From the NCBI RefSeq assembly GCF_023614235.1, contig NZ_CP094264.1, forward strand, positions 558,001-622,000: a DNA stretch of 64,000 nucleotides. Reading direction: 5' to 3'. The position numbers and the translations under genes are program-made. This document shows, piece by piece, positions 8,144 to 60,650 of this stretch; the stretch's first letter is position 1; each line of letters starts with the position of its first letter. The DNA comes from Streptomyces sp. MRC013. Lineage in GTDB: Bacteria; Actinomycetota; Actinomycetes; Streptomycetales; Streptomycetaceae. Under the pieces are notes generated by a model. That model saw only the letters and a list, made by a program, of their open reading frames with translations. It ran no database searches and was not told where the DNA came from.

Positions 8144-8146
8144 CGG

Positions 8147-15856: not shown

Positions 15857-15868
15857 AGCGGACCTGCG

Positions 15869-43990: not shown

Positions 43991-44105
43991 CCTCCGGGCC
44001 CGGCATGACTGTGTCCCCCTGTCGAACGAATGACCTGGGGGGTGGTGTCACCGGGTCCGGGAGGTGTTCGTCGGAGACGCTGATCAGAGGTCCGGCCACC
44101 GTCCG

Positions 44106-44124
44106 GTCCGGCGCAACGCCGGAC
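44106..44124 (+). ncRNA. Hairpin within a candidate bridge-RNA region of IS110
   Basis: GTCCGGCG-CAA-CGCCGGAC forms a perfect 8-bp stem 91 bases upstream of the transposase ATG. IS110-family elements with an N-terminal RuvC-like domain are known to express a bridge RNA from the 5' non-coding end. The whole of about 44000-44214 is therefore a candidate; only this stem is obvious by eye. Confidence 0.35.
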
Positions 44125-44214
44125 AGTTCACGGGCGGCAGGTCTGCATAACGTGGATGCGCGAGCACGACACCCGAGCCGAGGCCGGCACCGCCAACACC
44201 TGCGAGAGGGCACG

Positions 44215-45741: not shown

Positions 45742-47016
45742 ATGCCGAATGGAGCAAAGCAAGTGCTGCTCGTCCAGAAGTACGGTGGGTCCTCCCTCCA
45801 GGATGCCGACCGCATAAGAAAGGTCGCCGAGCGAATACTGAAGACGCAGAGAAGTGGGCACGATGTCGTCGTGGTCTGCTCGGCCATGGGCGACACCAGT
45901 GATGACCTGATCGATCTGGCGGAGAAGGTGAGCAGCAAACCGCCGGCCCGCGAGATGGACATGCTGCTCTCCTCCGGAGAACGCGTCTCCAACGCGCTGA
46001 TGGCCATGGCCATCCATGAACTGGGAGGCACCGCTCACTCCCTTTCCGGGACGCAGGCCGGGGTGTTCACCGATGCCGCCCACGGTCGGGCCCGGATCGT
46101 CGACGTGGTACCCGACCGGGTCCGCCGGGTGCTGGATCAGGGGGCGATCGCCCTGGTCGCGGGGTTCCAGGGGATCAGCAGGGACACCCATGACACGACG
46201 ACCCTGGGGCGTGGCGGTTCGGATGTGACGGCGGTCGCGCTGGCCGCGGCGCTCAAAGCCGACACCTGCGAGATCTACACGGACGTCGACGGCGTGTTCT
46301 CCGCCGACCCTCGCATCGTCGACAGTGCGAGACTCCTGAAGACCATCAGCTACGCGGAGATGCTGGAAATGTCAGCCACCGGAGCGAAGGTACTCATGTC
46401 ACGCTGCGTGGAGTACGCCCGCCGACATGATGTGGACATCTGCGTTCGCTCCTCCTTTACAGACCATCCAGGAACGCTCGTTTCAAATTCGGTGGAGGAA
46501 GCTGCAGTGGAAGGTTCTTGCGTCTCCGGCGTGACCCACACCCGGTCGATTTGCAAGATTACTCTGGAGGATGTCCCGGCCGATCCTTCTGCGGTGGCGC
46601 AGATATTCGAGTTAATGGCCGCCGCCGGTATATCCCTCGACATGTTGCAGAACATCGGCGCCTCGCCGCGGTCCACGTTGGCGTTCACCGTCCCGGGAGA
46701 AGACGGCCGGCGGACCCTGGAACTCCTGGAGGAGCACCGCGCCCACATCGGTTACGGCCCGGTGCGGTGCGACGGCGGGGTCGGCCAGGTCTCGCTGGTC
46801 GGAGCGGGTATCCGCAGTGAGCCCGGTGTGGTGGCGACGCTGTGCCGGACGCTGGCCGGAATCGGTATCGGCGTGGACCTGATGTCGGTCTCGGAGATCA
46901 GGGTTTCGGCGCTCTGCCCCACCGACCAACTCGACGAGGCGGTGCGGACGTTGCACCGGAGCTTCGGTCTCGACAGCTCCGTTCCGGCGGTCGTCTACGC
47001 GGGGACGGGGCGCTGA
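45742..47016 (+). CDS. Cluster-borne aspartate kinase
   Basis: A 424-residue monofunctional aspartokinase (aspartate to aspartyl phosphate, entry of the threonine/methionine/lysine pathway). It has VQKYGGSSLQDAD at the start, VVCSAMGDTSDDLIDL, the AGFQGISRDTHDTTTLGRGG core and YTDVDGVFSADPRIV, then two ACT domains. In the first ACT domain the usual IDMVVQN-type ligand loop reads LDMLQNIGAS, so feedback inhibition may be weakened; this is inference. Start may be ATG 45742 or GTG 45763, the latter with GGAG at good spacing. It is the first gene of the phosphonate island and probably a paralogue of the housekeeping enzyme. Confidence 0.92.
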   Translation: MPNGAKQVLLVQKYGGSSLQDADRIRKVAERILKTQRSGHDVVVVCSAMGDTSDDLIDLAEKVSSKPPAREMDMLLSSGERVSNALMAMAIHELGGTAHSLSGTQAGVFTDAAHGRARIVDVVPDRVRRVLDQGAIALVAGFQGISRDTHDTTTLGRGGSDVTAVALAAALKADTCEIYTDVDGVFSADPRIVDSARLLKTISYAEMLEMSATGAKVLMSRCVEYARRHDVDICVRSSFTDHPGTLVSNSVEEAAVEGSCVSGVTHTRSICKITLEDVPADPSAVAQIFELMAAAGISLDMLQNIGASPRSTLAFTVPGEDGRRTLELLEEHRAHIGYGPVRCDGGVGQVSLVGAGIRSEPGVVATLCRTLAGIGIGVDLMSVSEIRVSALCPTDQLDEAVRTLHRSFGLDSSVPAVVYAGTGR

Positions 47017-47018
47017 CC

Positions 47019-48356
47019 ATGACACCTGGTGGCACGGGATCCGACACGCTCACCCGCCCCTCGCCCGTTCCGTTACGGCAGGACGACGGCACCGGTACCG
47101 GCATCGGCATCGGCATCGGTGAGGGGACGGCCCTCTACGTCGGTGCGGTGCTCGGAGGCGGGCTGCTGGCCCTCCCGGCCCTCGCGGCACGCGTCGCCGG
47201 GCCCGCCTCGCTGATCGCCTGGGCGGTGATCGTGCTGCTCTGCGTTCCGGTGGCCAGTGCCTTCACGGCGCTGGGAACGCGATATCCGGACGGGGGCGGC
47301 ATCGCCACCTTCGTCACCAAGGCCTTCGGCAGGCGGGCGGCGACACCGGTCGGCTGGAGCTTCTACTTCACGGTGCCCGTGGCGAACTGCTGCGCCTCCT
47401 ACATCGGTGGCGAGTACGTCGCCGGTGCGCTCGGCGGCGGCCGTGCCACGGCCATGGTGTCGGCGGCCGTGATCCTCGTCGTGGCCTACGTCGGCAACTG
47501 GTTCGGGCTGCGCATGTCCGGGCGGATGCAGTTGGCGATGGTCGGGCTGCTGATGCTGGTCCTGCTGACCGCGGTCTTCACCGCACTGCCGCAGACCCGC
47601 GCCGAGAACCTGGAACCGTTCGCCCCGCACGGCTGGCTTGCGGTGGGCGGGGCGATCACCCTGCTCTTCTACTCCTTCGCGGGGTGGGAGGCCGTCACCC
47701 ACCTGTCCGGCGAGTTCTCCGACCCCCGGCGTCAGCTGCCCAGGATCACGGCGCTTTCGGTCGGCGTCGTCGCGGTGGTGTACCTCGGTCTCGCCTTCGC
47801 CTGCGTCGGCGTGCTGGGCCCCGCCATGAACGGTTCGGCGGTGCCGCTGACGATGCTCATGCAGCGCGGCATCGGAGACGCGACGCAGGCCGTCACCGTG
47901 ACCGTCGCGATCCTCCTCTCCTTCGGCACGGTGAACGCCTTCGCCGCCAGCGGAGCCCGGCTCGGCGCCGCGCTGGGACGGGACGGAGGTCTGCCCAAGT
48001 GGTTCGCCAAGGGCGGCGCGGCCGGCGAGGTGCCCCGGCGCAGCCTCGCCGTACTCGCCGCGATCGCCACCCTGGTCATGCTGGTGCTCTCGGTCGCTCC
48101 GGTGGGCGTCGACTCGCTGATGTCGGCGGCGTCCGTCCTGTTCGTCACGGTGTACGTGGCCGGTCTAGCCGCGGCGGTGCGGTTGCTGCGACGGATGAGC
48201 GCGGCCTGGTGCGGCGCCGTGATCGGGTTGATCGCGCTGGTCGGTTCGCTCACCTTCTTCCGCTACTTCCTCCTCCTCCCGGTGCTGTTGGTCGCCCTCG
48301 CCGAGATGTTCCGACTGATTCAACGGAGTCGTGCAGTCGAAAGGACAACGCCATGA
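47019..48356 (+). CDS. APC-superfamily amino-acid transporter (YjeH-like)
   Basis: A 445-residue membrane protein with about 12 helices. It starts after a tail rich in GTGTGIGIGIGEG, then GTALYVGAVLGGGLLALPAL, a conserved APC first helix, VAYVGNWFGLRMSGRMQLAM and FYSFAGWEAVTHLSGEF. The closest functional relatives I can name export neutral amino acids (YjeH). It begins 2 bases after the aspartate kinase stop and overlaps homoserine dehydrogenase. It may export or import an amino-acid precursor or the phosphono amino acid. Confidence 0.85.
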   Translation: MTPGGTGSDTLTRPSPVPLRQDDGTGTGIGIGIGEGTALYVGAVLGGGLLALPALAARVAGPASLIAWAVIVLLCVPVASAFTALGTRYPDGGGIATFVTKAFGRRAATPVGWSFYFTVPVANCCASYIGGEYVAGALGGGRATAMVSAAVILVVAYVGNWFGLRMSGRMQLAMVGLLMLVLLTAVFTALPQTRAENLEPFAPHGWLAVGGAITLLFYSFAGWEAVTHLSGEFSDPRRQLPRITALSVGVVAVVYLGLAFACVGVLGPAMNGSAVPLTMLMQRGIGDATQAVTVTVAILLSFGTVNAFAASGARLGAALGRDGGLPKWFAKGGAAGEVPRRSLAVLAAIATLVMLVLSVAPVGVDSLMSAASVLFVTVYVAGLAAAVRLLRRMSAAWCGAVIGLIALVGSLTFFRYFLLLPVLLVALAEMFRLIQRSRAVERTTP

Positions 48357-49690
48357 ACACCCGGCCTCTGAAAGTAGCCGTACTCGGTTGCGGAGTAGTC
48401 GGCACGAAGGTCGTACGGCTGCTGCACGACAGGCGTTCCGCGCTGGCCGACCGCATGGGCGCGCCCGTCGAGATCGCCGGCGTCGCGGTGCGCGACCTCC
48501 AGCGGCCCAGGGACCTCGGCATCGATCCGGCGCTCCTCACCAACGACCCTCTGGAGCTGGTCAAACGCGATGGCATCGATATCGTCGTCGAACTGCTCGG
48601 GGGCATCGAGCCGGCCCGCTCGCTGATGGTGACGGCGATGGAGCGCGGCGCCTCGGTGGTGAGTGCTAACAAGGCAGTGGTGGCCGAGCACGGGCCCGTC
48701 CTCCACGAGATCGCCGCGCGCCACGGCGTCGACCTGCTCTACGAGGCGTCGGTGGCCGCGGCGATACCCCTGCTGCGTCCGCTGCGCGACTCGCTCGGCG
48801 GTGACGACGTCACCCGTGTCGTCGGCATCGTCAACGGAACCACCAACTACGTCCTGGACCGCATGACGGAGACCGGGAGCGGCCTGGACGCGGCGCTGCG
48901 CGAGGCCATCGAGCGGGGGTACGCCGAGGCCGACCCCACCGCCGACGTGGAGGGAACCGACGCTGCGGCCAAAGCCGTGATCCTGGGCTCGCTCGCGTTC
49001 CACTCCTGGATGTCCCCGACGGACGTGTACCGCGAGGGCATCACCGGGGTGACGGCGGAGGACGTGGCCGACGCCCGGGCCTGCGACTGCGTCGTCAAGT
49101 TGGTCGCCGTGCTGGAGCGGACGGCCGCGCAGGACGAGTTCCTGGTCCGGGTCCAGCCCATGATGGTGCCTCGTACCCACCCGCTCGCCGAGGTGAAGGG
49201 CGCGGACAACGCCGTGCTCATCGAGGCCGCCAGCGCGGGCCGGCTGCTGTTCCGCGGCGCCGGCGCCGGGGGAGCGCCCACCGCCGGCGCGATCGTCGGT
49301 GACGTGGTGACGGCGGCGCGGCGGAGGTTGCTCGGGCAGCACGAGCCCGCCGTCCGCACCACCGTCGCGGACCGTGCCCGTGCCGCGGGAGGGCTGCGCG
49401 GCCGCTACCACCTCCGGGTGCGGGTCGACGGTTCCGCCACGTCACTCGACGACATCGTCTCCGCGCTGCGCCGCAACGAGGTGCGGGTCGGCTCCGTGCG
49501 GCGGCGTCGAACGGCGGGGCCGGACACCTGGGTTCTGGTCACCGAGCCCTGCCGGGAGGCGGACCTGCTCTCCGCCGTGGATTCCCTCAGCGCCCTGCCG
49601 TCGGTGGGCGACGTACCGCGGTTTCTGCGGATCCTCGATTCCGACGGTCAGGAGGTGGTCGATGGCCAGGGCTCCACGGCCGATCGCTGA
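48353..49690 (+). CDS. Cluster-borne homoserine dehydrogenase
   Basis: A 445-residue NAD(P)-dependent enzyme reducing aspartate semialdehyde to homoserine. It has the Rossmann motif VAVLGCGVVGTKVV, SANKAVVAEHGP, YEASVAAAIPLLRPL, VNGTTNYVLDRM and the catalytic-region phrase YAEADPTADVEGTDAAAKAV, plus a C-terminal ACT domain (RYHLRVRVDG). ATG 48353 overlaps the permease stop (ATGA). With the aspartate kinase it covers two of the three steps from aspartate to homoserine; no semialdehyde dehydrogenase or threonine synthase is in the window. An altered role on a phosphonate substrate cannot be excluded. Confidence 0.92.
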   Translation: MNTRPLKVAVLGCGVVGTKVVRLLHDRRSALADRMGAPVEIAGVAVRDLQRPRDLGIDPALLTNDPLELVKRDGIDIVVELLGGIEPARSLMVTAMERGASVVSANKAVVAEHGPVLHEIAARHGVDLLYEASVAAAIPLLRPLRDSLGGDDVTRVVGIVNGTTNYVLDRMTETGSGLDAALREAIERGYAEADPTADVEGTDAAAKAVILGSLAFHSWMSPTDVYREGITGVTAEDVADARACDCVVKLVAVLERTAAQDEFLVRVQPMMVPRTHPLAEVKGADNAVLIEAASAGRLLFRGAGAGGAPTAGAIVGDVVTAARRRLLGQHEPAVRTTVADRARAAGGLRGRYHLRVRVDGSATSLDDIVSALRRNEVRVGSVRRRRTAGPDTWVLVTEPCREADLLSAVDSLSALPSVGDVPRFLRILDSDGQEVVDGQGSTADR

Positions 49691-49716
49691 AGTACCGGGA
49701 CCCCTACGGGAGAATC

Positions 49717-50199
49717 ATGACCATTTCGGGAAATTCCGCGCGACCGTTGGCGGAGAGCGCGGTGGTGGACCCTTTCGCTCTCTACCGCATCGTTGAAGCG
49801 CACACTCCGGACGCCGCCGCCATACGGAGTGCCGCGCTGAACGGCGCACTCAAACTGTTCTCTCCGGTGGTGGCGATCGCGGTGGCCGGAAGCATGCGTT
49901 CGTGCTGGGACGACGAATGCCGGCAACGCCATGCGTTTCTGGGAAGCAAACTGTCCGCGTTCTGCGAACGGGCCGGCCTGGAGATCGGGGCGGCGGACCC
50001 GGAGGCGGCCGTCACGGCCGGGCGCCTGTACGCGGCGTCCACCACCATGCGCATCGAGGGACCGGAGGTCCTGGCGGCCTGTCACGCCGCCCAGGTGGCC
50101 TCGGAACGCGACATCGAACTGCTGACCGTGAGCCGTGCGGCCTACTGCTACCGGGCCATCCACTCGGCCGGAATCCAGGTGGCCATGCGCACACTCTGA
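49717..50199 (+). CDS. Unknown 160-residue protein in the phosphonate cluster
   Basis: A helical, Cys-containing protein (VVDPFALYRIVEAHTPDA, FSPVVAIAVAGSMRSCWDDE, HAFLGSKLSAFCERAGLEIG, VLAACHAAQVASERDIELL) that I cannot place in a family. It starts 26 bases after homoserine dehydrogenase and ends before the 240-base spacer preceding the decarboxylase genes, so it is the last gene of the first block. It has no signal peptide and no membrane segment. Could be an accessory or immunity factor; no function is assigned. Confidence 0.75.
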   Translation: MTISGNSARPLAESAVVDPFALYRIVEAHTPDAAAIRSAALNGALKLFSPVVAIAVAGSMRSCWDDECRQRHAFLGSKLSAFCERAGLEIGAADPEAAVTAGRLYAASTTMRIEGPEVLAACHAAQVASERDIELLTVSRAAYCYRAIHSAGIQVAMRTL

Positions 50200-50253
50200 C
50201 CGTCGTAGGCGGTTTCAACAAGTGCCCCGGCCGCGAAGGCGGCGTCCACGAAA

Positions 50254-50280
50254 GGGCAATCCCGCATCGCTGGATTGCCC
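50254..50280 (+). promoter_or_regulatory. Perfect 9-bp inverted repeat between the two halves of the phosphonate cluster
   Basis: GGGCAATCC (50254-50262) and GGATTGCCC (50272-50280) flank a 9-base spacer, 55 bases after the stop of the 160-residue gene. The following 150 bases are unusually AT-rich for this genome. It could end the first block as a weak terminator or be an operator for a promoter driving the biosynthetic block that starts at 50440. Confidence 0.5.
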
Positions 50281-50439
50281 CTGTGGTATGCCTGGAATTA
50301 CTCGGCGCGCTTTCCTGACTGCTTACCCCAAGATCCTCTTGTGGTCGCTTCATGTTCAGGACATGATTATCGAGCTCAAGGGATCAGAAATCCCTGCGCC
50401 GTTTTCGTCAAAAGCGCGTACCAGACGGGGGTTTCATCT

Positions 50440-50946
50440 GTGAGTTCCACCACGCGAAGCAACGCCTCCGAGGTCGTGATGCGATCGTTCTTTGACCACG
50501 GGTTCATGAGTTTCACGGGTGTCCCGTGCTCGTTGCTCAAGGGGCTTTTCCGGATACTCGAGGATCCTCAGTGCCCCGCCCGTTACCTGCCGGCGCCGAG
50601 AGAGGACAGCGCGGTCGGCGTCGCCTCGGGGCTGACACTGGCCGGCAGCACGACCGTCGTCCTCATGCAGAACTCCGGCCTGGGCTATTCGCTCAACGTC
50701 CTCACCTCGTTCACGCTCGTCTACGACGTCCACCTGCCGCTGGTGGTGAGCTGGCGGGGGCACGACGGCAACGACGCGGTCGAACACGCCGTCATCGGGC
50801 GCGAGTTGACCCGACTGCTCGATGTGTTCCACCTGCCGTGGACGGTCCTCGACCCCGACGCGCCGCAGCAGTCCGTCGACGCCTTCCTCAAGCAGTACGA
50901 CGGCGGCCGGCGCACCGCGGCCCTCATCGTCAAGGAAGGCGTGTGA
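50440..50946 (+). CDS. Phosphonopyruvate decarboxylase, alpha (PYR-domain) subunit
   Basis: A 168-residue TPP-enzyme N-terminal domain: ASEVVMRSFFDHGFMSFTGV, LLKGLFRILEDP, then PAPREDSAVGVASGLTLAG with the cofactor-activating Glu (about residue 55) and LMQNSGLGYSLNVLTSFTLVYD. The phrase with NSG-x-G-x-x-N-x-L-T is typical of phosphonopyruvate and sulfopyruvate decarboxylases. It works with the next gene, which holds the TPP diphosphate-binding half, as a two-chain enzyme turning phosphonopyruvate into phosphonoacetaldehyde. GTG 50440 is the start supported by homology. Confidence 0.9.
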   Translation: MSSTTRSNASEVVMRSFFDHGFMSFTGVPCSLLKGLFRILEDPQCPARYLPAPREDSAVGVASGLTLAGSTTVVLMQNSGLGYSLNVLTSFTLVYDVHLPLVVSWRGHDGNDAVEHAVIGRELTRLLDVFHLPWTVLDPDAPQQSVDAFLKQYDGGRRTAALIVKEGV

Positions 50947-50948
50947 CC

Positions 50949-51506
50949 ATGCTCGACATCCGCGACGCGATCCAAGCCGTCCGGGCCCGTGAACCGTCCG
51001 CGCGGTACGTCACGACCTGCGGCTACATCACCCGGGACGTCTACAACATCGACGACCGGGAGAACAACTTCTACCTCGTCGGCTCCATGGGGATGGCCGC
51101 ACCGATCGGCCTCGGCGTGGCCCTGGCGGACGCCGGCCGACGGGTGGTGGTGCTCGACGGGGACGGCTCCTTCGCCATGAACCTCGGCTGCCTCCCGATG
51201 ATCGCCGAACACCGGCCGGACCTGGTGCACTTCGTCCTGGACAACGGGGCCCACGAGAGCACCGGCGGACAGCGGACGGCGGCGCTCGGCGACCCGGTGT
51301 CGTTGGCCCTCGCCGCCGGATACGCCGCCGCGTACTCGGTGGGCAGCCGCGAGGAACTGGAGGCCCTCGACCTCACCGGCACCCCCGCACTGGTGCACGT
51401 CCGGTGCCGTCCCCGCACGCACGCGGCGGGACGCCGGGTGGCCCTGACCCCGCAGGAGCTCGTCTCCCGCTTCCGAGCGCATCTCGGCGTCCCGGCGCAC
51501 GCCTGA
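50949..51506 (+). CDS. Phosphonopyruvate decarboxylase, beta (TPP-binding) subunit
   Basis: A 185-residue C-terminal TPP-enzyme half: NNFYLVGSMGMAAPIGLGVA, the TPP/Mg motif LDGDGSFAMNLGCLPMIAEH (GDG at residues 71-73) and VLDNGAHESTGGQRTA, the last nearly identical in type to known phosphonopyruvate decarboxylases. It starts 2 bases after the alpha subunit. Decarboxylation makes the unfavourable PEP mutase reaction effectively irreversible, as is usual in phosphonate pathways. Confidence 0.92.
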   Translation: MLDIRDAIQAVRAREPSARYVTTCGYITRDVYNIDDRENNFYLVGSMGMAAPIGLGVALADAGRRVVVLDGDGSFAMNLGCLPMIAEHRPDLVHFVLDNGAHESTGGQRTAALGDPVSLALAAGYAAAYSVGSREELEALDLTGTPALVHVRCRPRTHAAGRRVALTPQELVSRFRAHLGVPAHA

Positions 51507-51517
51507 AGGAGGATCGC

Positions 51518-52525
51518 GTGAAACCCGTACTACTCGACTGCACCCTGCGTGACGGGGGCAACCAGAACGACTGGCAGTTCACCCCGACCGACGTGCGGAC
51601 CATCGTCAGCAGGCTCGACGCGGCGCGCGTCGACGTCATCGAGGTGGGGTACCGCGGCGGCTCGGGAAGCCGAAGCAGCTCGACCGCCGGGCCCACCGCG
51701 CACTGCACCCCCGAGTTCCTCGCGATACTGCCCTCCACCCGCCACGCCGAGTTGGCGGTCATGGTCGTCCCCACGGTCTGCCCCGTCGACGCCATGGACG
51801 ACCTGCCCGACAGCCCGATCTCCATGGTCCGGATAGCCGCGTACCCCTGGAACATCGACGGCGTGCCCGAGTACGTCCGGGCGGCACGCGCCCTGGGACT
51901 GCGGACCACCGTCAACCTCATGGCCGTGAGCTATGCCGACCTTCCGCGACTGGCCGACATCGCGGCGACGGTGCGCACGGAGCTCCCCGACGTGATGTAC
52001 GTGGCCGACTCCTTCGGTTCGCTCACGCCGGACAGCGTGCGCGAACGCATCGAGCTCCTCGCCGACCGGCTGGACCGCCCGATCGGCATCCACGCGCACA
52101 ACAACCTCGGACTGGCCGCCGCCAACGCGCTGGCCGCCATGGAGGCCGGTGCGACCTGGCTGGACGCGTCGCTGTGCGCCATGGCCCGCGGGGCCGGCAA
52201 CCTCGCCACGGAGCAGGCCGCCGCCTTCCTGACGGCGTGGCCGGCCTACGAGACGCACACCGACCTGCCCGCGATCTGCGAGGCCTCCGAGTATGTGGCC
52301 GAACGGGTGCTGCCCCGCCCGATGACCGTGCGCCGCGCCGAGATCGCGGCCGGCGTCAACGACCACCACTACTACTACCAGGGCCGCCTGGAGAAGGCCG
52401 CGGCCCGCCACGGCCTGGACCCGTGGGAGGTCGGCCGTCGGATCGGCGCCGTCCGCCCGCACAAGGTGCTCGACGATGTGATCGAGAGCGTGTGCCACGA
52501 GATGAGTGGAGGACTCCCCGCATGA
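51518..52525 (+). CDS. DRE-TIM aldolase, candidate phosphonoacetaldehyde:oxaloacetate aldolase (RhiG-like)
   Basis: A 335-residue HMGL-like protein with the metal motif LLDCTLRDGGNQNDW (residues 5-19), YVADSFGSLTP and GIHAHNNLGLAAANAL (His192, His194). It is of the 4-hydroxy-2-oxovalerate aldolase type rather than the homocitrate synthase type. The rhizocticin enzyme RhiG, described as an aldolase homologue, joins phosphonoacetaldehyde and oxaloacetate on the way to APPA. Position between the decarboxylase and PEP mutase genes makes the same reaction likely here. GTG 51518 follows AAGGAGGA. The stop overlaps PEP mutase (ATGA). Confidence 0.85.
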   Translation: MKPVLLDCTLRDGGNQNDWQFTPTDVRTIVSRLDAARVDVIEVGYRGGSGSRSSSTAGPTAHCTPEFLAILPSTRHAELAVMVVPTVCPVDAMDDLPDSPISMVRIAAYPWNIDGVPEYVRAARALGLRTTVNLMAVSYADLPRLADIAATVRTELPDVMYVADSFGSLTPDSVRERIELLADRLDRPIGIHAHNNLGLAAANALAAMEAGATWLDASLCAMARGAGNLATEQAAAFLTAWPAYETHTDLPAICEASEYVAERVLPRPMTVRRAEIAAGVNDHHYYYQGRLEKAAARHGLDPWEVGRRIGAVRPHKVLDDVIESVCHEMSGGLPA

Positions 52526-53439
52526 CCACCAGTCAACCGTCCGCACGGTCCAGTGCGGCGCAGGCGCTGCGCGCCGCCCTCGAGTCCCCCGGCCTGGCCC
52601 GGGCCATGGGAGCCCACAACCCGCTGAGCGCACGCCTCGCCGAGGAAGTCGGGTTCGACGTCATCTGGTCCAGCGGCTTGGAGATATCCGCCGCGGCCGG
52701 CGTGCCCGACGCCAACATCCTCGCGATGCCCGAGTGCCTGGAAGCGGCGGCCGGCCTGGCGAACGCCGTCGACCTGCCGGTGCTCGCGGACTGCGACTCC
52801 GGATTCGGCAACGTCAACAACGTCGTCCACATGGTGCGCGCCTACGAGTCCCGCGGGCTCGCCGGGGTCTGCATCGAGGACAAGCGGTTCCCCAAGCTCA
52901 ACAGCTTCGTGGAGGGGGACCAGGAACTCGCCCCGCTCGGCGACTTCGCCGGCAAGGTCAGGGCTGCCACGGAGACCCGGGAGAACCTCGTCGTCGTCGC
53001 ACGCCTGGAAGCGTTGATCTCCGGCAAGGGGATGGCCGAGGCGCTGCGCCGAGCCGAGGTCTACGAACGCGCCGGTGCCGACGCCCTGTTGATCCACTCG
53101 AAGCTCTCAGAGCCGGACGAGGTCTTCGCCTTCCGCGAGGCGTACACCGGTGACCTCCCGGTGGTCGTCGTCCCGACCACCTATCACCACGTCACGGTCG
53201 GCGAGCTGGAGGAGCGCGGCTTCGCCATGGCCATCTACGCCAACCACGCCCTGCGCAGTTCCCTGCGTGCCATGCGGGAGACACTGGGCAGGATCATGCG
53301 GGACGGGACCACCCGCCATGTGGAGGAGAGTCTGGCCTCGCTGAAGGAGATCTTCGACCTCCAGCGGGTGCCGCAGATGCTGGAGCAGCAGGCCCGGTAC
53401 GAAGAGCTGGGCCGCGACCTGGCGGAGGCCGGACGATGA
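52522..53439 (+). CDS. pepM: Phosphoenolpyruvate phosphomutase
   Basis: A 305-residue isocitrate-lyase-superfamily enzyme that forms the C-P bond (PEP to phosphonopyruvate). The diagnostic motif EDK-x5-NS is present as EDKRFPKLNS (residues 119-128), together with DVIWSSGLEISAAAG and ADCDSGFGN with metal-binding Asp residues. This motif separates true mutases from phosphonopyruvate hydrolases and lyases. It is the marker gene of the cluster. It overlaps genes on both sides by 4 bases. Confidence 0.97.
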   Translation: MTTSQPSARSSAAQALRAALESPGLARAMGAHNPLSARLAEEVGFDVIWSSGLEISAAAGVPDANILAMPECLEAAAGLANAVDLPVLADCDSGFGNVNNVVHMVRAYESRGLAGVCIEDKRFPKLNSFVEGDQELAPLGDFAGKVRAATETRENLVVVARLEALISGKGMAEALRRAEVYERAGADALLIHSKLSEPDEVFAFREAYTGDLPVVVVPTTYHHVTVGELEERGFAMAIYANHALRSSLRAMRETLGRIMRDGTTRHVEESLASLKEIFDLQRVPQMLEQQARYEELGRDLAEAGR

Positions 53440-54551
53440 CCGTGACGACGGGTACCGTCGTGCAGAGCCTGGCCTTCGCCGGCACCCGCCTGGACCTGGA
53501 GCTGGAGCCCGGCGCCGACATCAGCGGGGCGCTGGACTTCCTCGGGACGCACCTGGTCGCCGAACCGCCCGGCGACGGCACACACCGGAGCCCCGTCCTC
53601 GCCACCGTGCGCATCGCGGCGGCGGAGTCGGACCGCCATGCGCCCCCGGCCGGCACGCCGTGGGAGGACGTCTACGTCCGCAAGAGCGCCAGCGAGTTCT
53701 TCACCATCCCCGCGCGGCGCGCCGAGGCCCACGGGTGCGAGTACCTGGAGTGCACCAGGACCGGTACCCGCTTCGCCTTCGACCGCACCGCGCGGACCAT
53801 CGACGCGGTGATCGGGCCGGACGGCACCATGGACCTCGTCGAACTGATCCGCGACCTCGTGCTCAAGGACCAGGAGAACTCCGGGGCGGCCGTGCTGCAC
53901 GCGACGGCCGCGTATCGCGACGGCTCCGCCGTCCTGATCACCGGGGCGAAGGGCGCGGGCAAGAGCACGCTCCTGCTGGAGCTGGTAGAGAAGTTCGGCT
54001 ACCAGATCATGAGCGGCGACAAGACCGTCCTGCACGAGCAGGCGGACGGCTCGGTGCTCGCCACCGGCTGGCCGGACTACCCGCACCTCGGGTACGGCAC
54101 CATCGCCAAGTACCCCGGTCTGCGGGAGATCGCCGGGATCGCCGACGGCTACGCACCCGACGCCGGCCACGCGTTCTCGCCGGTGGGCAAGTTCGCGGTG
54201 GACCCGGCCCGGTTCCGGGAGCGCTTCCCCAGCGCGCCCCGCGGGGTGCGGGTGCCCGTCTCCGCGATCATCCACCCGTCCATCGGGCCCGGTGACCGCA
54301 CGGTCCTGGAAGCCTGCCCGCCCGTGACGGAGGCGCTCGCGGCCGCACTCGACGCCAACGTGGAGTCGGCGTTCGACGGCGCGAACGCCGGGTGGCACCA
54401 CTATCTGACGGATGCCCGCGCCGCCCAGGCGGACCGGCGGAGCCGGATCACGGCCGCCCTGGCGAGGGTCCCGGCATGGCAGCTGACCGGCCCCGGCGAC
54501 CTGACGGCGGACAACGTCCCGCTGCCCGTGGCGGAGGCGAGTGCCACATGA
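53436..54551 (+). CDS. HPr-kinase-like P-loop kinase
   Basis: A 371-residue protein whose C-terminal half carries a Walker A motif GAKGAGKST (residues 170-178) followed by LLELVEKFGYQIMSGDK, the arrangement of HPr kinase/phosphorylase and related kinases. The N-terminal 160 residues are a separate domain. Streptomyces has no classical HPr kinase regulation, while HprK homologues in other natural-product clusters modify small products (for example lasso peptide Ser phosphorylation). Here it may phosphorylate a hydroxyl on the phosphonate intermediate. It is coupled by ATGA overlaps to PEP mutase and the YjbQ gene. Confidence 0.8.
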   Translation: MTVTTGTVVQSLAFAGTRLDLELEPGADISGALDFLGTHLVAEPPGDGTHRSPVLATVRIAAAESDRHAPPAGTPWEDVYVRKSASEFFTIPARRAEAHGCEYLECTRTGTRFAFDRTARTIDAVIGPDGTMDLVELIRDLVLKDQENSGAAVLHATAAYRDGSAVLITGAKGAGKSTLLLELVEKFGYQIMSGDKTVLHEQADGSVLATGWPDYPHLGYGTIAKYPGLREIAGIADGYAPDAGHAFSPVGKFAVDPARFRERFPSAPRGVRVPVSAIIHPSIGPGDRTVLEACPPVTEALAAALDANVESAFDGANAGWHHYLTDARAAQADRRSRITAALARVPAWQLTGPGDLTADNVPLPVAEASAT

Positions 54552-54976
54552 TCGAGCTGACGATCACCAGCACCGGTCTCAACTCCCACTACGACCTCAC
54601 GGACGAGCTGACCGAGCGGTTGCGCGAGCACGGCGCGGGCGACGGGCTGGCCGGGGTCTTCGCCCATGGCAGCACGGTCGGGCTGACCATCATGCGGTAC
54701 GAACCAGGGGCCGTGCAGGACCTGCTGCGGGCCCTGGAGCGGCTGGCACCGGACGACGGCAACCGCTACCTGCACGAGTTGACCACCGGCGACCCCAACG
54801 GCTTCTCGCACCTGAAGTCGTCCTTGCTCGGCACGAGTGTGCTGGTGCCCTTCCTCGACGGCGGACTGGGCATGTCGCCCTCGCACCGTGTGGTACTCGT
54901 CGACTTCGACCTGAAGCCGGCCACCCGAAGAGTCCTGATCGACCCGCCCCGCGCGGCCAAGGAGGAAAACCGGTGA
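54548..54976 (+). CDS. YjbQ/UPF0047-family protein
   Basis: A 142-residue protein matching the YjbQ fold along its full length: FAHGSTVGLTIMRYEPGAVQ (His40), YLHELTTGDPNGFSHLKSSL with His76, Asn84 and His88, GTSVLVPFLDGGLGMSPSH and RRVLI. Housekeeping members are linked to thiamine phosphate synthase activity, but their real role is unclear. Its placement between a kinase and an aminotransferase in one coupled operon suggests a catalytic step, perhaps displacement or elimination of phosphate. That assignment is inference. Confidence 0.82.
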   Translation: MIELTITSTGLNSHYDLTDELTERLREHGAGDGLAGVFAHGSTVGLTIMRYEPGAVQDLLRALERLAPDDGNRYLHELTTGDPNGFSHLKSSLLGTSVLVPFLDGGLGMSPSHRVVLVDFDLKPATRRVLIDPPRAAKEENR

Positions 54977-56115
54977 AACTGCGTCTGGCCACCCCGGGGC
55001 CGACCGAGGTACCCCAGCGGCTCCTGCTGGCCGGGGCCCGGGAGATCGTTCATCACCGTTCGTCGGAGATGGAAGAGCTGATCCACGAGGTGAACGAGGG
55101 GCTGCCGCCGCTCTTCGGCACGACCCGCCCCGTCTACACCATCGCCGCGTCCGGCACCGGCGCCATGGAGGCGGCCGTCGCCAACTGCTTCTCCGCCGAG
55201 AACGAGGTTCTGGTCGTCTCGAACGGCTACTTCGGCGAACGCTTCCAGGCCATCTGCCGCAACTACGGACTCACCGTGCACGTGGTGGAGAGCGACTGGG
55301 GCACCAGCGCCGACCCGCAGCGGGTGGCCGAGGCGTACGCCCAGCACCCCGGGATCCGGGGCGTCTTCGTCGTCTACAGCGAGACGTCGACCGGCGCCCT
55401 GAACGACGTCGAAGCCATCGGGCGGATGTTCCGCGACACCGATGTGGTCGTCGTGGTGGATGCCGTCAGCGGACTGCTGGTGCACCCGCTGGAGATGGAC
55501 GAGTGGGGCCTGGACGTCGTGCTCGCGGCCTCGCACAAGGGGTTCATGCTCCCGCCGGGCCTCGCCTTCGTCGCCCTGTCGGACAAGGCGTGGACGGCCG
55601 TGGGGAGTTCCTCCGGCCCGACCTACTACTGGTCGTTCGAGCGGCTGCGCCACTTCTACCCCATGTCCTCCTCGTCTCCTGCGGTCTCCCTGCTGCTCGG
55701 CCTGCACGAGTCGTTGAGGATGCTCGGCGAGGAAGGACTGCCCGCCTTCCGGACGCGGCACGCCACCCTGGGCAAGGCGGCCGAACGAGCCCTGCTGGAA
55801 CTGGGCTTCACCACGTTCATCCGGCCCCCGCACCGCCGCAGCCACGTCATCACCTCGGCCCTGGCACCCGAGGGCGTCGACACCACCCGGCTGCTGAAGA
55901 CCCTGTCCACGCAGTACGGGCTGACCATGACCGGGGGGCAGGCCCACCTCAAGGGCAAGCTGATCCGGGTGGGACACGTGGGCGCGGCGGACGCCCTCGA
56001 CCTGTGCGCGGTGGTCGGGGCCCTGGAGATGTCCCTGCTCGCCCTCGGGCACCGCTTCACTCCGGGCACCGGCGTCGGTGAAGTCGTCCGTACCTTCCAC
56101 GAAGAGGTGAAGTGA
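54973..56115 (+). CDS. Class V PLP aminotransferase
   Basis: A 380-residue enzyme of the alanine-glyoxylate/serine-glyoxylate/2-aminoethylphosphonate transaminase group. It has LATPGPTEVPQRLLLAGARE, SGTGAMEAAVANCFS, the PLP-pyridine Asp in VVDAVSGLLVHPLEMDEWGL (Asp163) and the Schiff-base Lys189 in AASHKGFMLPPGLAF. It could aminate the 2-oxo-phosphonate made by the aldolase, or phosphonoacetaldehyde directly. GTG 54973 follows AAGGAGG and overlaps the YjbQ stop. Confidence 0.9.
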   Translation: MKLRLATPGPTEVPQRLLLAGAREIVHHRSSEMEELIHEVNEGLPPLFGTTRPVYTIAASGTGAMEAAVANCFSAENEVLVVSNGYFGERFQAICRNYGLTVHVVESDWGTSADPQRVAEAYAQHPGIRGVFVVYSETSTGALNDVEAIGRMFRDTDVVVVVDAVSGLLVHPLEMDEWGLDVVLAASHKGFMLPPGLAFVALSDKAWTAVGSSSGPTYYWSFERLRHFYPMSSSSPAVSLLLGLHESLRMLGEEGLPAFRTRHATLGKAAERALLELGFTTFIRPPHRRSHVITSALAPEGVDTTRLLKTLSTQYGLTMTGGQAHLKGKLIRVGHVGAADALDLCAVVGALEMSLLALGHRFTPGTGVGEVVRTFHEEVK

Positions 56116-56405
56116 TGCTCGTCCTGTTCCAGCGGGAGACCTGCCCCGACTGCAAGCCCGTACGGGAACTGCTGACCCGGCTCCAGATCTCGTACATCAA
56201 CGTCAACGTCCCCAAGCCGCGCGACGAACGGCATGAGCTGATCCGGGTGACCGGCAGCAAGTTCATCCCCGCCCTGGTCGACGGGGCGACCGTGATCCCG
56301 GGCAGGCTGCGGGAGAACAGCGAGATCATCGCCTATCTCACGGAGCGGTTCGGCGAGCCGCGCGCGGACGGGTCCGGGGAGCCACAGCCGGAGTCCGCGG
56401 CATGA
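56112..56405 (+). CDS. Glutaredoxin-like protein
   Basis: A 97-residue thioredoxin-fold protein with a CPDC active site near the N-terminus (VLFQRETCPDCKPVRELLTR) and the later GSKFIPALVDGATVIPG cis-Pro region. It ends with an acidic tail. Starts GTG 56112 and ATG 56115 are adjacent; both overlap the aminotransferase stop. A redox role in the phosphonate pathway is not obvious; it may protect a thiol enzyme or carry a substrate-specific reduction. Confidence 0.85.
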   Translation: MMLVLFQRETCPDCKPVRELLTRLQISYINVNVPKPRDERHELIRVTGSKFIPALVDGATVIPGRLRENSEIIAYLTERFGEPRADGSGEPQPESAA

Positions 56406-57625
56406 GCGACGGCTCCGGACCGGTCGTCGCGATCGTCGCGGGTACCCCGCAACTGGTGGACGCGGCACGGGCGCTGGACGTGCGGACGGTCTTCGTGCAC
56501 GCCGCGGACGAGCCGCGGCCGCGGTCCGCGGACGCGGCCGATCACGCGGTCGCCGCGGACCTCGCGGACGACGCTGCGGTCCTCGCGGCGCTGGCCCCGT
56601 TCCACGAGCGGTACCGGCTGGTCCGCGTGCTGTCCCTGACCGAGCGCGGGCTGCTGCCCGCCGCCGCGGCGGCGGAAGCGCTCGGCGTGGCCGGGAACTC
56701 CCTGCACACCGTCCGCCTGCTCCAGGACAAGCGGCGGATGCGGGAGCTGCTCGCCGCCCGAGGACTCAGCCCGGTCCGGAGCCGTTCCCTCCTCTCCCCC
56801 GCCGACCTCGCCGGCTTCTGCCGGGAGGTCGGCGGGCCGGTGATCCTCAAACCGGCCGGCGGTTCGTCCAGCAAGGCCGTGGTCCGGGTTGCGGAACCGC
56901 GGGACGCGGAAGCCGCCTGGCGGTGGTTCGGCACGGCCGGCGGCACCGACCCCGTCGCGGAGGAGTTCCTCGGCGGGCCGGAGATCAGCGTGGAGGGGTT
57001 CACCCACCGAGGGCGGCACACCGTCGTGGCGATCACCGACAAGCAGGTGCTGCCCTCGTTCGTGGAGGCCGGGCACACCATGCCCAGTGCACTTCCCCCG
57101 GCGGTGCTGGAGGAGGCCGCGGCGCTGACGCTGGCGTTCCTGGACGCCGTCGGCCTGCGCGAGGGACCCTCCCACACAGAGCTGAAGATCACCGAGCGCG
57201 GTCCTCGGATCATCGAGTCCCACAACCGCATCGGCGGGGACAAGATCCGCGAACTAGTGCGCCGGGCCCACGGCGTCGACCTGGTCGGTCTCACGGTGGG
57301 GTGCCCGCTCGGGCTGCTCCCCGCGCCACCGGGACGGCCGGCCGCCCTCGGCGGCGCCGCCATCCGATTCCTGACCCCGCCGCCCGGAACGGTCCGGCGG
57401 ATCCGCACACCCGACACCGGCGCGGGACCGGACGTGATCAGGCTCGAGGTCGGCGTCGGCGAGGTGATCGGCCCGGTGCTCCGTTCCGAGGACCGCGCCG
57501 GGTACGTGCTGACCGGCGGCACCGACGCGGCGGACGCCGCCCGGCGCTGCGAGCGCCTCGCGGAACAGGTGCTGATCGAGGTGGATCCGGCCGGACGGCC
57601 GGCGGACCGGCCGGCCGGAGGCTGA
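56402..57625 (+). CDS. ATP-grasp amino-acid ligase 1
   Basis: A 407-residue ATP-grasp enzyme: LQDKRRMRELLAARGLSPVR, VGGPVILKPAGGSSSKAVV (ATP-binding Lys and Gly-rich loop), EEFLGGPEISVEGFTHRG and the Mg-binding TELKITERGPRIIESHNRIG with GGDKI. It resembles L-amino-acid ligases that make dipeptides from free amino acids with ADP formation. It could join the phosphono amino acid to a proteinogenic residue. ATG 56402 overlaps the glutaredoxin stop. Confidence 0.9.
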   Translation: MSDGSGPVVAIVAGTPQLVDAARALDVRTVFVHAADEPRPRSADAADHAVAADLADDAAVLAALAPFHERYRLVRVLSLTERGLLPAAAAAEALGVAGNSLHTVRLLQDKRRMRELLAARGLSPVRSRSLLSPADLAGFCREVGGPVILKPAGGSSSKAVVRVAEPRDAEAAWRWFGTAGGTDPVAEEFLGGPEISVEGFTHRGRHTVVAITDKQVLPSFVEAGHTMPSALPPAVLEEAAALTLAFLDAVGLREGPSHTELKITERGPRIIESHNRIGGDKIRELVRRAHGVDLVGLTVGCPLGLLPAPPGRPAALGGAAIRFLTPPPGTVRRIRTPDTGAGPDVIRLEVGVGEVIGPVLRSEDRAGYVLTGGTDAADAARRCERLAEQVLIEVDPAGRPADRPAGG

Positions 57626-57628
57626 GCG

Positions 57629-58282
57629 ATGCGCTACGCCGTCGTCACCGACATCCACGGCAACACCACCGGTCTGCGCGCGGTCCTGGCACGGGTGCGG
57701 GACCAGCACGTGCACCAGGTCGTCTGCCTGGGCGACGTCTTCGAGTGCCACGTCGGCAAACGGGACGTCGCGGGCCACACGTTCTCGCGCGTCGACGAGG
57801 TCTTCGACCAGGACCCCGAGCTGGTCGCCCTGCTGGACGGCGCACGGGTCGTACGGGGCAACCAGGAAGAGCGCATCAGCACGCTCGTCCCCGGTCCGGC
57901 CCGCCCCGCATGGGCACGTCCGGTGCTCGACGCGCCGCTGTCGTTCCACACGGACTTCGCCACGTACTGTCACGGTCACGCGCTGCCATCCTGGCAGGAG
58001 CCCGAACCGGGCCTATGGTGCCCCCTGGAGGCCGGGTTCACCGGGCGGGCCCTCTTCCACGGCCACCATCACCGCAGCGCCGTGCACCGGCTGCCGGCCA
58101 CCGGGCGGGCCTGGGCCGACGTGGTGAGCATCCCGCTCCGCCTCGGCGAGGCCGTGCACCTCGCCCCGGACGGCCGGTACCTCGTCAACGTCGGTCCGGT
58201 CCGCGGGCCGGTCCCGACCTGGGCCGTCGTCGACGAGGTGGAGGCGACCGTCACCTACTACCGAATCGAGGCGCCCGGATGA
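57629..58282 (+). CDS. Calcineurin-like metallophosphoesterase
   Basis: A 217-residue protein with all motif blocks of the family: AVVTDIHGN (Asp8, His10), VVCLGDVFE (Asp36), VVRGNQEERI, a CHGH phrase and FHGHHHRSA. It belongs to the small MPE group that includes YfcE/diadenosine-type phosphatases. It starts 3 bases after ligase 1 and overlaps ligase 2, so it is an integral part of the pathway. It may remove a phosphate ester at the end of biosynthesis (possibly a protective group put on by the HprK-like kinase). Confidence 0.88.
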   Translation: MRYAVVTDIHGNTTGLRAVLARVRDQHVHQVVCLGDVFECHVGKRDVAGHTFSRVDEVFDQDPELVALLDGARVVRGNQEERISTLVPGPARPAWARPVLDAPLSFHTDFATYCHGHALPSWQEPEPGLWCPLEAGFTGRALFHGHHHRSAVHRLPATGRAWADVVSIPLRLGEAVHLAPDGRYLVNVGPVRGPVPTWAVVDEVEATVTYYRIEAPG

Positions 58283-59427
58283 CCCGCCAGGTCCTGCTGC
58301 TCAACTCCGACAAGCCCGAGGTCGTACGCGCCTTGGCGGACCGCGCCGACCTGCGGGTCCGGGTACTCACCCGCAAGGCGTACGCCGGGCTCTACACCGG
58401 CTGGGAGACCGCCTTCGTCGACAGCTTCGAAGACCTCTCGCAGGTCGAGCGCGCCGCGTACGAACTCGTCAGCGGCGGCCCGGTCGACCACGTCATCGCC
58501 GCCACCGAGAAGAGCGTCCTGCCGGCCGGGCTCATCCGGTCCCTGCTGGGTCTGCCCGGGCCGACCTTCGACCAGTCCCTGTGGGCGGCCCACAAGCGCG
58601 CCATGAAGGCGAGACTGCGGTCCGCCGGTCTGCCGGTGGCGGACTTCGCGCAGGCCGCGACCGTCGACGACATCCCGCGGGCCGCACGGCGGATCGGCTG
58701 GCCGGTGATGGTCAAGCCGGTGTTCGGCTCCGGTTCCCGGTGCACCTACCGCCTCGACTCCCAGGAGGAGTTCGACGCCCGGCGGCTGTCGGGCGGCTTC
58801 GAGGCCCTCGCGGCGCGCCGCGTCCCCGTCCAGGTCGAGCGCCTCGTGCGATTCCGCGACGAGTACCACTGCGACGGTGTCGTACGCGGTGGCCGGGTCC
58901 GGCTGGCGGCGGTCTCCCGCTACTTCACCCCGCCGCTGCACACCCCGCACGAGTACAGCAGCGGCTACCTCATTGCCCAGGACGACCCGTTCGCCAAAGA
59001 CGTGCTCGCCCTGCACGACCGGGTGGCCGAGGCGCTCGAACTGTCCGACGGCGTGACGCACCTCGAGGTCTTCGAGACCGCCGAGGGACCGTTGATCGGA
59101 GAAGTCGCGATCAGGCCGGGGGGCCTGGGCGTCTCGCGTATGTGGTGGCACGCCTTCGGCATCGACCTGTGGGAGGAGTTCGTCCGGGCCTCCCTCGACG
59201 AGCCGTCGGAGCTCGTCCCCCGCCCCCAGGAGCGGACCGTCGGCCGCACGCAGCTGCCGGCTCGGGACGGCCTGCCGGAACAGGCCCTCGCCCTGCCCGG
59301 GGTCGTCGAAGCCCTGCCCCCGGAACAGAGCGGAACCGGCAACGTCGAAGTGCACTACGCCGTCGACGGGCCCGAGGCGGCCCGCCGGCTCAACGACCGG
59401 CTGCACGCGCTCGGGGGGCCGCGGTGA
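58279..59427 (+). CDS. ATP-grasp ligase 2
   Basis: A 382-residue ATP-grasp protein: VLLLNSDKPEVVRALADRA, AAHKRAMKARLRSAGLPVAD, IGWPVMVKPVFGSGSRCTYR, VQVERLVRFRDEYHCDGVV and HLEVFETAEGPLIGEVAIRP with GGLG. It is only distantly like ligase 1, so it likely uses a different acceptor. Together they could build a tripeptide or act on two intermediates. ATG 58279 overlaps the phosphoesterase stop; the stop overlaps the exporter GTG. Confidence 0.88.
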   Translation: MTRQVLLLNSDKPEVVRALADRADLRVRVLTRKAYAGLYTGWETAFVDSFEDLSQVERAAYELVSGGPVDHVIAATEKSVLPAGLIRSLLGLPGPTFDQSLWAAHKRAMKARLRSAGLPVADFAQAATVDDIPRAARRIGWPVMVKPVFGSGSRCTYRLDSQEEFDARRLSGGFEALAARRVPVQVERLVRFRDEYHCDGVVRGGRVRLAAVSRYFTPPLHTPHEYSSGYLIAQDDPFAKDVLALHDRVAEALELSDGVTHLEVFETAEGPLIGEVAIRPGGLGVSRMWWHAFGIDLWEEFVRASLDEPSELVPRPQERTVGRTQLPARDGLPEQALALPGVVEALPPEQSGTGNVEVHYAVDGPEAARRLNDRLHALGGPR

Positions 59428-60650
59428 GGGGCTCGCTGGTCCACAGACTGCTGCCCGCCCCGGGAGCACCGCGCCTGCTCGCCGCCTCGTGGCTGATCAA
59501 GACGCTGGGCAGCGGTCTGTACCTGCCGACCAGCGTGCTGTTCTTCACTCGTGTCGCGGGCCTCTCCGCCGGCCGGGTCGCTCTCGGCCTCACCCTCGCC
59601 GGGCTGATATCCCTCGCCGGAGCGGTACCGCTCGGCGGCCTGGCGGACCGCTACGGCCCGCGCCGCACCTACGGCGTCCTGCTCATCGTGCAGTTCGCGA
59701 CCATGGCCATGCTCGCGCTGGTCCGCTCCTTCCCCTTGTTCCTGGCGCTGATCGTTGTCTTCACGCTGGCCGAACAGGGCAGCAGCGCGGCCCGCGGAGC
59801 GCTGATCGCCGTGGTCGGCGAGGGGGCCGAGCGGGTGCGGCTGCGGGCGTACCTCCGGGTCGTGACGAACGTGGGGGTGGCCATCGGCGCGGGACTGGCG
59901 GCCATCGCCATCGACCTGGGGACCACCCTCGCCTTCACGGTTCTGCTGCTGGGCACGGCGCTGACGTTCCCGGCCGCCGCGATCCCCTTGCGCGGACTGG
60001 CCGCGGACGCCGTCGTGGCCGGCGGGAAGGCGGTTCCGCGGTCGTCGCGCCGGCAGGTGTTCCGCGATTCCCGGTACGTCTGGGTCACGGCGATCTGCGG
60101 TGTGCTCAGCCTGCAGTCGCAGGTCCTCTCCTTCGCCGTGCCGCTCTGGGTCGTCAACCACACGGCTGCTCCCCCGCTGACCGTCTCCGTCATCGTCGTG
60201 CTCAACGCGGCCATGGTCGTCCTCCTGCAGATCCGCGCGAGCCGCGGGGCGGACGACGATGCGCGCGCGGCACGCCTGTGCCGGCGCGCCGGGCTGAGCC
60301 TGCTGGCCGCGTGCGTGGTGGTGGTCTTCACGCGTGCGGCGGCGCCCTGGCTCGCCGTGCTGCTGCTCATCGTCTTCGCGGTGCTGCTGACGGCCGGTGA
60401 ACTCTGGACCTCGGCCGGGTCGTTCGGCCTGAGCTTCACCCTCGCGCCGGACGGCGCGCACGGCCAGTACCAGGGCTTCTTCTCCCTCGGCCGTGGAGTG
60501 GCGACGGCCGTCGCCCCGTGGCTGCTGTCCACGCTGTGCCTGTCGGACGACGGCGGGCGCGGCTGGCTGGCCCTGGGCGCGCTGTTCGCCCTCGTCGGCG
60601 CACTCATGCCGGTCGCCGTCCGCCGCTCTCCCCTGCGCGTCGCCGCCTAG
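59424..60650 (+). CDS. MFS transporter, probable product exporter
   Basis: A 408-residue major facilitator protein with about 12 helices: LLAASWLIKTLGSGLYLPTS, the loop 2-3 motif PLGGLADRYGPRRTYG, and a C-terminal half with GFFSLGRGVATAVAPWL. Start GTG 59424 overlaps ligase 2. The stop TAG at 60648-60650 coincides with the first bases of the IS701 remnant (TAGTACTCCGG), so the extreme C-terminus may have been set by that insertion. Drug/peptide export is the likely role. Confidence 0.88.
   Translation: MRGSLVHRLLPAPGAPRLLAASWLIKTLGSGLYLPTSVLFFTRVAGLSAGRVALGLTLAGLISLAGAVPLGGLADRYGPRRTYGVLLIVQFATMAMLALVRSFPLFLALIVVFTLAEQGSSAARGALIAVVGEGAERVRLRAYLRVVTNVGVAIGAGLAAIAIDLGTTLAFTVLLLGTALTFPAAAIPLRGLAADAVVAGGKAVPRSSRRQVFRDSRYVWVTAICGVLSLQSQVLSFAVPLWVVNHTAAPPLTVSVIVVLNAAMVVLLQIRASRGADDDARAARLCRRAGLSLLAACVVVVFTRAAAPWLAVLLLIVFAVLLTAGELWTSAGSFGLSFTLAPDGAHGQYQGFFSLGRGVATAVAPWLLSTLCLSDDGGRGWLALGALFALVGALMPVAVRRSPLRVAA

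Follow-up and report, generated by a model that had tools for sequence, protein, structure and literature searches.

We analysed a 64,000-base window of Streptomyces sp. MRC013, positions 558001-622000 of the single contig (NZ_CP094264.1; 5,331,980 bases) that makes up its genome. Between window positions 45742 and 60650 lie 16 genes, all on the plus strand and all with open frames on inspection of the open reading frames, that form a candidate cluster for a phosphonopeptide of 2-amino-5-phosphono-3-pentenoic acid (APPA), preceded by an aspartokinase-homoserine dehydrogenase (lysC-hom) pair. Domains were assigned with Pfam and NCBIfam models, and start codons are chosen ones (ppdA has an alternative start at 50479, and the glutaredoxin gene starts at 56112 or 56115).

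45742..47016, + strand: lysC-type aspartokinase, second copy, first ACT domain decayed (NF005153, 597.6 bits)
47019..48356, + strand: APC-family amino acid permease (AA_permease_2, 124.6 bits)
48353..49690, + strand: homoserine dehydrogenase (hom), second copy, ACT domain unrecognisable (Homoserine_dh, 202.9 bits)
49717..50199, + strand: 160-residue protein of no family, PIN-like predicted fold (AlphaFold2 and Foldseek)
50440..50946, + strand: ppdA, phosphonopyruvate decarboxylase alpha (N half of TIGR03297, 110 bits)
50943..51506, + strand: ppdB, phosphonopyruvate decarboxylase beta (C half of TIGR03297, 146.1 bits)
51518..52525, + strand: DRE-TIM aldolase in the RhiG position (HMGL-like, 121.1 bits)
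52522..53439, + strand: pepM, phosphoenolpyruvate phosphomutase (PEP_mutase, 186 bits; PDB 5unc, 318.6 bits)
53436..54551, + strand: HprK/PEPCK-like P-loop protein (HprK-related models matched far under cut-off)
54548..54976, + strand: YjbQ/UPF0047 protein (UPF0047, 82.7 bits)
54973..56115, + strand: class V aminotransferase, PhnW-like (Aminotran_5, 95.7 bits)
56112..56405, + strand: glutaredoxin-like protein with a CPDC motif (Glutaredoxin, 41.2 bits)
56402..57625, + strand: ATP-grasp ligase 1, L-amino acid ligase type (LAL_C2, 52.2 bits; best PDB match BL00235, 3vot, 82.3 bits)
57629..58282, + strand: metallophosphoesterase (Metallophos_2, 33.1 bits)
58279..59427, + strand: ATP-grasp ligase 2, RizA-like (PDB 4wd3, 240.7 bits, E 2.3e-70)
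59424..60650, + strand: MFS transporter, probable exporter (MFS_1, 72.6 bits)

All genes named in an initial annotation, made from the sequence alone, were recovered as open frames with families backed by these models; its inventory lacked two core genes, those for the HprK/PEPCK-like (53436-54551) and YjbQ/UPF0047 (54548-54976) proteins. The EDK-x5-NS motif it gave for PepM reads EDKRFPKLNS, and PpdA and PpdB match the two halves of TIGR03297, as expected of the split phosphonopyruvate decarboxylase it had proposed. PepM scores 305.5 bits with the equivalog model TIGR02320, slightly under the cut-off of 319.55 that only 3 of 246 Streptomyces genomes exceed, and YjbQ scores 61.4 bits with the equivalog TIGR00149, under its cut-off of 67.75; the nearest NCBIfam model to the permease is PRK11021, a methionine/branched-chain transporter (189.5 of 284 bits). 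The tight packing described earlier is real, but "ten genes" was too few: between 50440 and 60650, 12 genes are joined by 11 junctions of -4 to +11 bases each. A spacer of 240 bases separates the 160-residue gene from the chosen ppdA start.

A scan with an aldolase alignment, taking one genome per species, yielded 24 kin loci. The eight genes ppdA, ppdB, aldolase, pepM, hprK, yjbQ, aminotransferase and glutaredoxin (grx) are complete, on a single strand and in the same order in 23 of these as well as in the window, the sole exception (L028) coming from a metagenome-assembled genome. These 23 collinear loci (15 from Actinomycetota and 8 from Firmicutes) all have the HprK/PEPCK-like, YjbQ and glutaredoxin genes. 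Ligase 1, the phosphoesterase and ligase 2 come after the core in 15/15 actinobacterial loci, and 13 of the 15 have a counterpart of the MFS gene. The phosphoesterase is present in 7/8 Firmicute loci and in 22/23 overall, the exception being L021, whose fetched stretch stops about 1.3 kb past grx. Within the genus the aldolase is rare, occurring in 3 of 392 Streptomyces genomes including that of MRC013 (E<=1e-60), and among 61 genomes (MRC013 and relatives) it is found in MRC013 alone (E<=1e-40). A core kept in order in all but one of the 24 loci, together with an aldolase so seldom met in Streptomyces, takes the association of these genes beyond chance; the glutaredoxin and phosphoesterase genes belong, on these comparisons, to the same known block. 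The initial annotation had found no named cluster to match the whole set, a judgement that stands for lysC, the APC permease, hom and the 160-residue gene and fails for the glutaredoxin and phosphoesterase.

Its APPA-type interpretation is supported by a Bacillus tequilensis locus (L027) with counterparts of ten window genes, at identities of 43% (ppdA), 52% (ppdB), 44% (aldolase), 54% (pepM), 36% (hprK), 52% (yjbQ), 58% (aminotransferase), 53% (grx), 34% (phosphoesterase) and 37% (ligase 2). Bacillus subtilis NBRC 3134 we take to be a rhizocticin producer, and the names of the rhizocticin (rhi) genes are used here on the same presumption. Over 411 residues (871.5 bits), the L027 terminal ligase is almost the same protein as RizA (PDB 4WD3), which a review table assigns to B. 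subtilis NBRC 3134 (PMC6920838). Gene set, gene order and kinship to the rhizocticin-type block are established by sequence comparison.

Some kin loci depart from this pattern or extend it. In loci of Glycomyces and Nocardiopsis (L012 17869-19158, L016 17966-19273 and L017 13313-14356) a further ATP-grasp ligase, 32-33% identical to ligase 1, follows the block, and longer peptides are possible there. One protein (P0078) is listed with both an aldolase domain (PF00682) and a PALP domain of the threonine-synthase type (PF00291), possibly a natural fusion, and Rathayibacter toxicus is listed with relatives of both the aldolase (P0044) and the HprK-like protein (P0184), on contig entries of equal length.

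In the proposed pathway, PepM would form phosphonopyruvate and PpdAB would convert it to phosphonoacetaldehyde, which the aldolase would join to a C3 unit drawn from oxaloacetate or pyruvate, forming 4-hydroxy-2-oxo-5-phosphonopentanoate; transamination by the class V enzyme would then yield the amino acid. The HprK/PEPCK-like protein may phosphorylate the 4-hydroxyl, and elimination, perhaps with YjbQ, would give the double bond, with glutaredoxin and phosphoesterase assisting its formation in some putative way. The two ATP-grasp ligases would add residues and the MFS protein would export the product. LysC and Hom, predicted to be feedback-blind, would be a recruited way into the homoserine branch, likely used to maintain high levels of homoserine and O-phosphohomoserine, whether to supply a building block of the aspartate family or to protect the host threonine synthase from APPA. 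We infer every step after the aldol reaction, the parts assigned to the HprK-like protein, YjbQ, glutaredoxin and phosphoesterase are putative, and actinobacterial products may be modified, all of which would suit a core making another C5 phosphonate amino acid, for example the 4-hydroxy compound. That all eight core genes are common to the rhizocticin-type locus, in order, makes such a product improbable and argues for APPA.

The lysC and hom genes of the window are second copies, 55% and 54% identical to housekeeping genes at genome positions 2451394 and 1359860. The Pfam ACT model scores 37.8 bits with the housekeeping Hom, whereas no match at E<=1 is found in Hom of the window, in the whole Hom of Streptomyces natalensis (L005) or in the C part of that of Streptomyces lilacinus (L006), the only part compared owing to runs of N. 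The window LysC scores 19.9 bits for ACT and 66.9 bits for ACT_9, against 51.5 and 122.8 bits for its housekeeping counterpart; cluster LysC proteins range over 15.6-21.0 and 62.0-71.9 bits, with the second ACT domain still recognised.

As controls we used housekeeping LysC and Hom from 24 further actinobacterial genomes, of which one is a Streptomyces and the rest represent 23 other genera. The loops compared, a Gly in the first ACT domain of LysC and GVL in Hom, are ones that we take to bind the feedback amino acids. The Gly is kept in 24/24 controls and in 0/3 cluster LysC proteins. GVL is kept in 24/24 controls and in 40/40 Homs of a second set (23 of the control Homs plus 17 Streptomyces Homs that are among the best matches to the window Hom and not a random draw), and in 0/5 cluster-type Homs (window, L005, the C part of L006, and two further Streptomyces loci, L126 and L149). 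A Ser-to-Gly change near the presumed lysine/threonine site is clear in the window and S. natalensis only; as the S. lilacinus alignment is ambiguous there and G182 (the genome of L149) keeps Ser, the loop Gly served as the LysC marker. ACT identity falls below the expectation from the catalytic domain for Hom (t -5.8, -4.4 and -5.4) and for the first ACT domain of LysC (t -3.0, -3.3 and -4.7), and for the second by t -1.2 to -1.4 only (regressions on rounded values with n=23, the partial genes L063 and L088 being excluded, though they are in the counts of 24). It is therefore the regulatory parts that have decayed, the alignment showing seemingly intact kinase motifs in LysC and dehydrogenase motifs in Hom, and both cluster enzymes are predicted to be feedback-blind.

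Known here from its genes, the locus is very probably (about 0.85) an APPA-type phosphonopeptide cluster of the rhizocticin and plumbemycin kind with a predicted feedback-blind lysC-hom entry. Several results weigh against that reading. The window aldolase does group with the RhiG-position aldolases, a check that the initial annotation had proposed, but the split (17 cluster rows against 7 others, of hydroxy-oxovalerate type) has support of only 83/92 with long outgroup branches and is not decisive; a tree of 36 rows had given long branches and a misplaced root and was redone with 24. A strict clade of the PepMs that bear the synteny is rejected (approximately unbiased test, p-AU 0.001), as the PepM of L094 nests inside it. 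The ACT regressions extrapolate below the range of the controls, and feedback blindness is less sure for LysC, whose second ACT domain is recognised and not clearly decayed, than for Hom. The arrangement lysC-apc-hom-160-residue gene occurs in only 2/15 other actinobacterial APPA loci (L005 and L006), so making APPA does not need the pair; and two Streptomyces genomes that lack the APPA aldolase (L126 and L149) have the pair as well, so the pair is not specific to APPA, which weakens the candidate role of an APPA-specific immunity pair.

The motif RDGGNxN is common to the window and Bacillus aldolases, and the 4-hydroxy-2-oxovalerate aldolase P0095 has RDGSHA. In the PepM tree (42 rows) the window protein pairs with that of S. 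natalensis (95/90), within a group of 26 (94/86) made up of all synteny-bearing, rhi-type PepMs of the set, the window included, and L094. The L094 protein (genome G109) is 64.7% identical to the window PepM, and its genome is not among the aldolase-positive ones. PepM, Ppd and a PhnW-like class V aminotransferase are the usual set for 2-aminoethylphosphonate, which would fit a pathway to phosphonolipid or polysaccharide head groups. The PepM grouping speaks against this, though as a partial check, the tree holding zero PepMs of known head-group pathways; the rejection rests mainly on gene content, in that aldolase, two ligases and transporter share one operon and the Pfam and NCBIfam models found neither a nucleotidyltransferase nor a lipid gene in the 16-gene cluster. 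A head-group pathway is hardly credible on these grounds.

Preferring an APPA-type cluster leaves two explanations of its lysC-hom pair to be weighed. One is precursor supply, with homoserine, threonine or methionine as a residue or building block, or a generally raised aspartate-family flux; with two ligases present, a residue of the homoserine family is possible. The aldolase-less loci bear on this. L149 (G182:C1:6022001-6041000) has, at 7020-18982, a type I polyketide synthase-like gene (named by eye from its sequence), lysC, hom and an MFS gene in a row on one strand, with LysC and Hom 72% and 67% identical to the window copies and their ACT loops lost. L126 (G106:C1:1802000-1821000) has, at 1967-9444, a frameshifted lysC, hom, an ATP-grasp-like gene (assigned by eye and without a Pfam match) and a relative of the 160-residue gene, with a glutamine-synthetase-like piece and a GATase nearby; no APPA genes were found in it. 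On catalytic-domain columns, the Homs of the window, L005, L126 and L149 lie on one side of a branch with 100/100 support, against 41 housekeeping rows. As this clade is found in APPA clusters, next to a polyketide synthase and in a third locus, the cassette Hom seems to be of single origin and to have moved into different clusters, a statement that covers Hom only, the one protein in the tree. The same Hom clade beside a polyketide synthase, and beside a glutamine-synthetase-like fragment and ATP-grasp-like gene, in loci without APPA genes, favours supply. APPA peptides other than rhizocticin A carry Val, Ala, Asp or Asn, which counts against it. Rhizocticin A is described in source passages as carrying arginine, a further point against supply, as is the absence of the pair from 13/15 other actinobacterial APPA loci.

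The other explanation is self-protection by substrate flooding, in which extra O-phosphohomoserine would compete with APPA for threonine synthase and for cystathionine gamma-synthase. A passage in PMC13302981 describes APPA as an analogue of homoserine phosphate with threonine synthase as its target, and the (E) form is reported, in a passage of PMC8241756, as crystallised with cystathionine gamma-synthase. Both enzymes take homoserine-derived substrates, and a feedback-blind LysC-Hom pair would raise these competing substrates. In the fetched stretches, a threonine synthase gene is present in 6/8 Firmicute loci and 0/15 actinobacterial loci, and none was found in the window (E<=1e-8); this pattern would suit flooding, although it is confounded with phylogeny. 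Three ThrC-like matches to the Bacillus threonine synthase occur in the MRC013 genome: one at 1358674 beside the housekeeping hom, one at 3026083 of a type present in 61/61 Streptomyces, and a third, less strong match at 1592391 (E 4.6e-24). That the first two are ordinary is also in keeping with flooding. Against it stand the occurrence of the same Hom clade in loci without APPA and the 13/15 actinobacterial loci, with Firmicute L024 and L026, whose fetched stretches have neither the pair nor a threonine synthase gene. Because the same pair adjoins a polyketide synthase, we place precursor supply somewhat ahead, at a little under even odds, and consider flooding possible but unlikely. A broader proposal, that Streptomyces secondary-metabolite clusters recruit a single-origin lysC-hom cassette with decayed ACT domains, which in the APPA cluster replaces a resistant target enzyme and gives flux-based self-immunity by out-flooding with substrate, is rather doubtful as a whole.

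The 160-residue protein has no Pfam or NCBIfam match. Its AlphaFold2 model has a mean predicted local distance difference test score (pLDDT) of 85.0 and its best Foldseek rows include the PIN-domain protein VapC4 (5h4h; E 3.8e-4, TM about 0.57), so a PIN/VapC-like fold is predicted. The gene is found in 5 of 392 Streptomyces genomes, MRC013 included (E<=1e-10); of the relatives, that of G106 adjoins lysC-hom and three others do not. Both the aldolase and a relative of the 160-residue protein are listed for S. anatolicus, NPDC021093 and S. spectabilis, in each case on contig entries of equal length. At the cluster edge, an IS110-family transposase (44005-45432) stops 309 bases 5' of lysC, and a DDE_5 transposase-like frame (41551-42657) lies farther upstream, which we read as signs of mobility.

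What looks new in this cluster is its upstream part, consisting of lysC, the APC permease, hom and the gene with the PIN-like predicted fold; the rest is of known kind. Among the literature matches listed, in which subscription journals are mostly uncovered, none describes a phosphonate cluster with an aspartokinase-homoserine dehydrogenase pair. The cassette is a source of enzymes predicted to be feedback-blind by nature, and it raises the testable idea that a producer protects itself from a threonine-synthase inhibitor by flooding with substrate. Taken across Actinomycetota and Firmicutes, the 23 collinear loci suggest a minimal APPA gene set whose late steps can be tested directly.

Compared with the rhizocticin type, represented by L027 and Bacillus sp. 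SKDU12 (L022), the window has in common the ten genes from ppdA to the RizA-like ligase, in the same order and at 34-58% identity. It differs in ligase 1, an actinobacterial extra that sits within the block between grx and the phosphoesterase, and in having lysC, the APC permease, hom and the PIN-fold gene upstream, where L027 and L022 have LysR, threonine synthase, an ATP-grasp ligase and MFS genes; the L027 threonine synthase, LysR and MFS proteins have no match in the window (E<=1e-8). The phosphonoalamide cluster (pnaABCD), as PMC11867202 describes it, is like the window in having PepM, two ATP-grasp ligases and a convergent peptide pathway, but its minimal set is without Ppd and aldolase, and an enzyme of the aspartate aminotransferase (AAT) superfamily transaminates phosphonopyruvate directly.

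Plumbemycin and phosacetamycin are actinobacterial (Streptomyces) APPA peptides, and the window is likened to them here through Streptomyces aureus NRRL B-1941 (L013). A passage of a 2025 paper names S. aureus as a phosacetamycin producer and gives no strain (S. natalensis is not mentioned in that paper), and one of a 2026 review has plumbemycin, phosacetamycin and rhizocticin alike releasing APPA. L013 carries the same 12-gene block from ppdA to mfs (60-89% identity per gene) without lysC-apc-hom upstream, where other genes are found. These include a member of one gene family that lies upstream of six Streptomyces APPA loci (L007, L008, L013, L014, L015 and L025); the L013 member is serine hydroxymethyltransferase-like, with 162.8 bits against a fluorothreonine transaldolase model (cut-off 650), and a phosphono-threonine-like side product is conceivable from such loci. 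Upstream frames on the minus strand lie at 6668-8110, 4243-4860 and 3187-4158 in L013 and at 4117-6576 in L007; L013 also has tRNA-editing and EamA genes there, and L007 a class II aldolase-like gene. Just downstream of the S. aureus block is an aspartokinase-like gene (L013 19498-20778, minus strand) with no ACT match at E<=1. In S. natalensis ATCC 27448 (L005) and S. lilacinus (L006, with runs of N inside the locus), all 16 genes are arranged as in the window, with lysC, apc, hom and the 160-residue gene among them.

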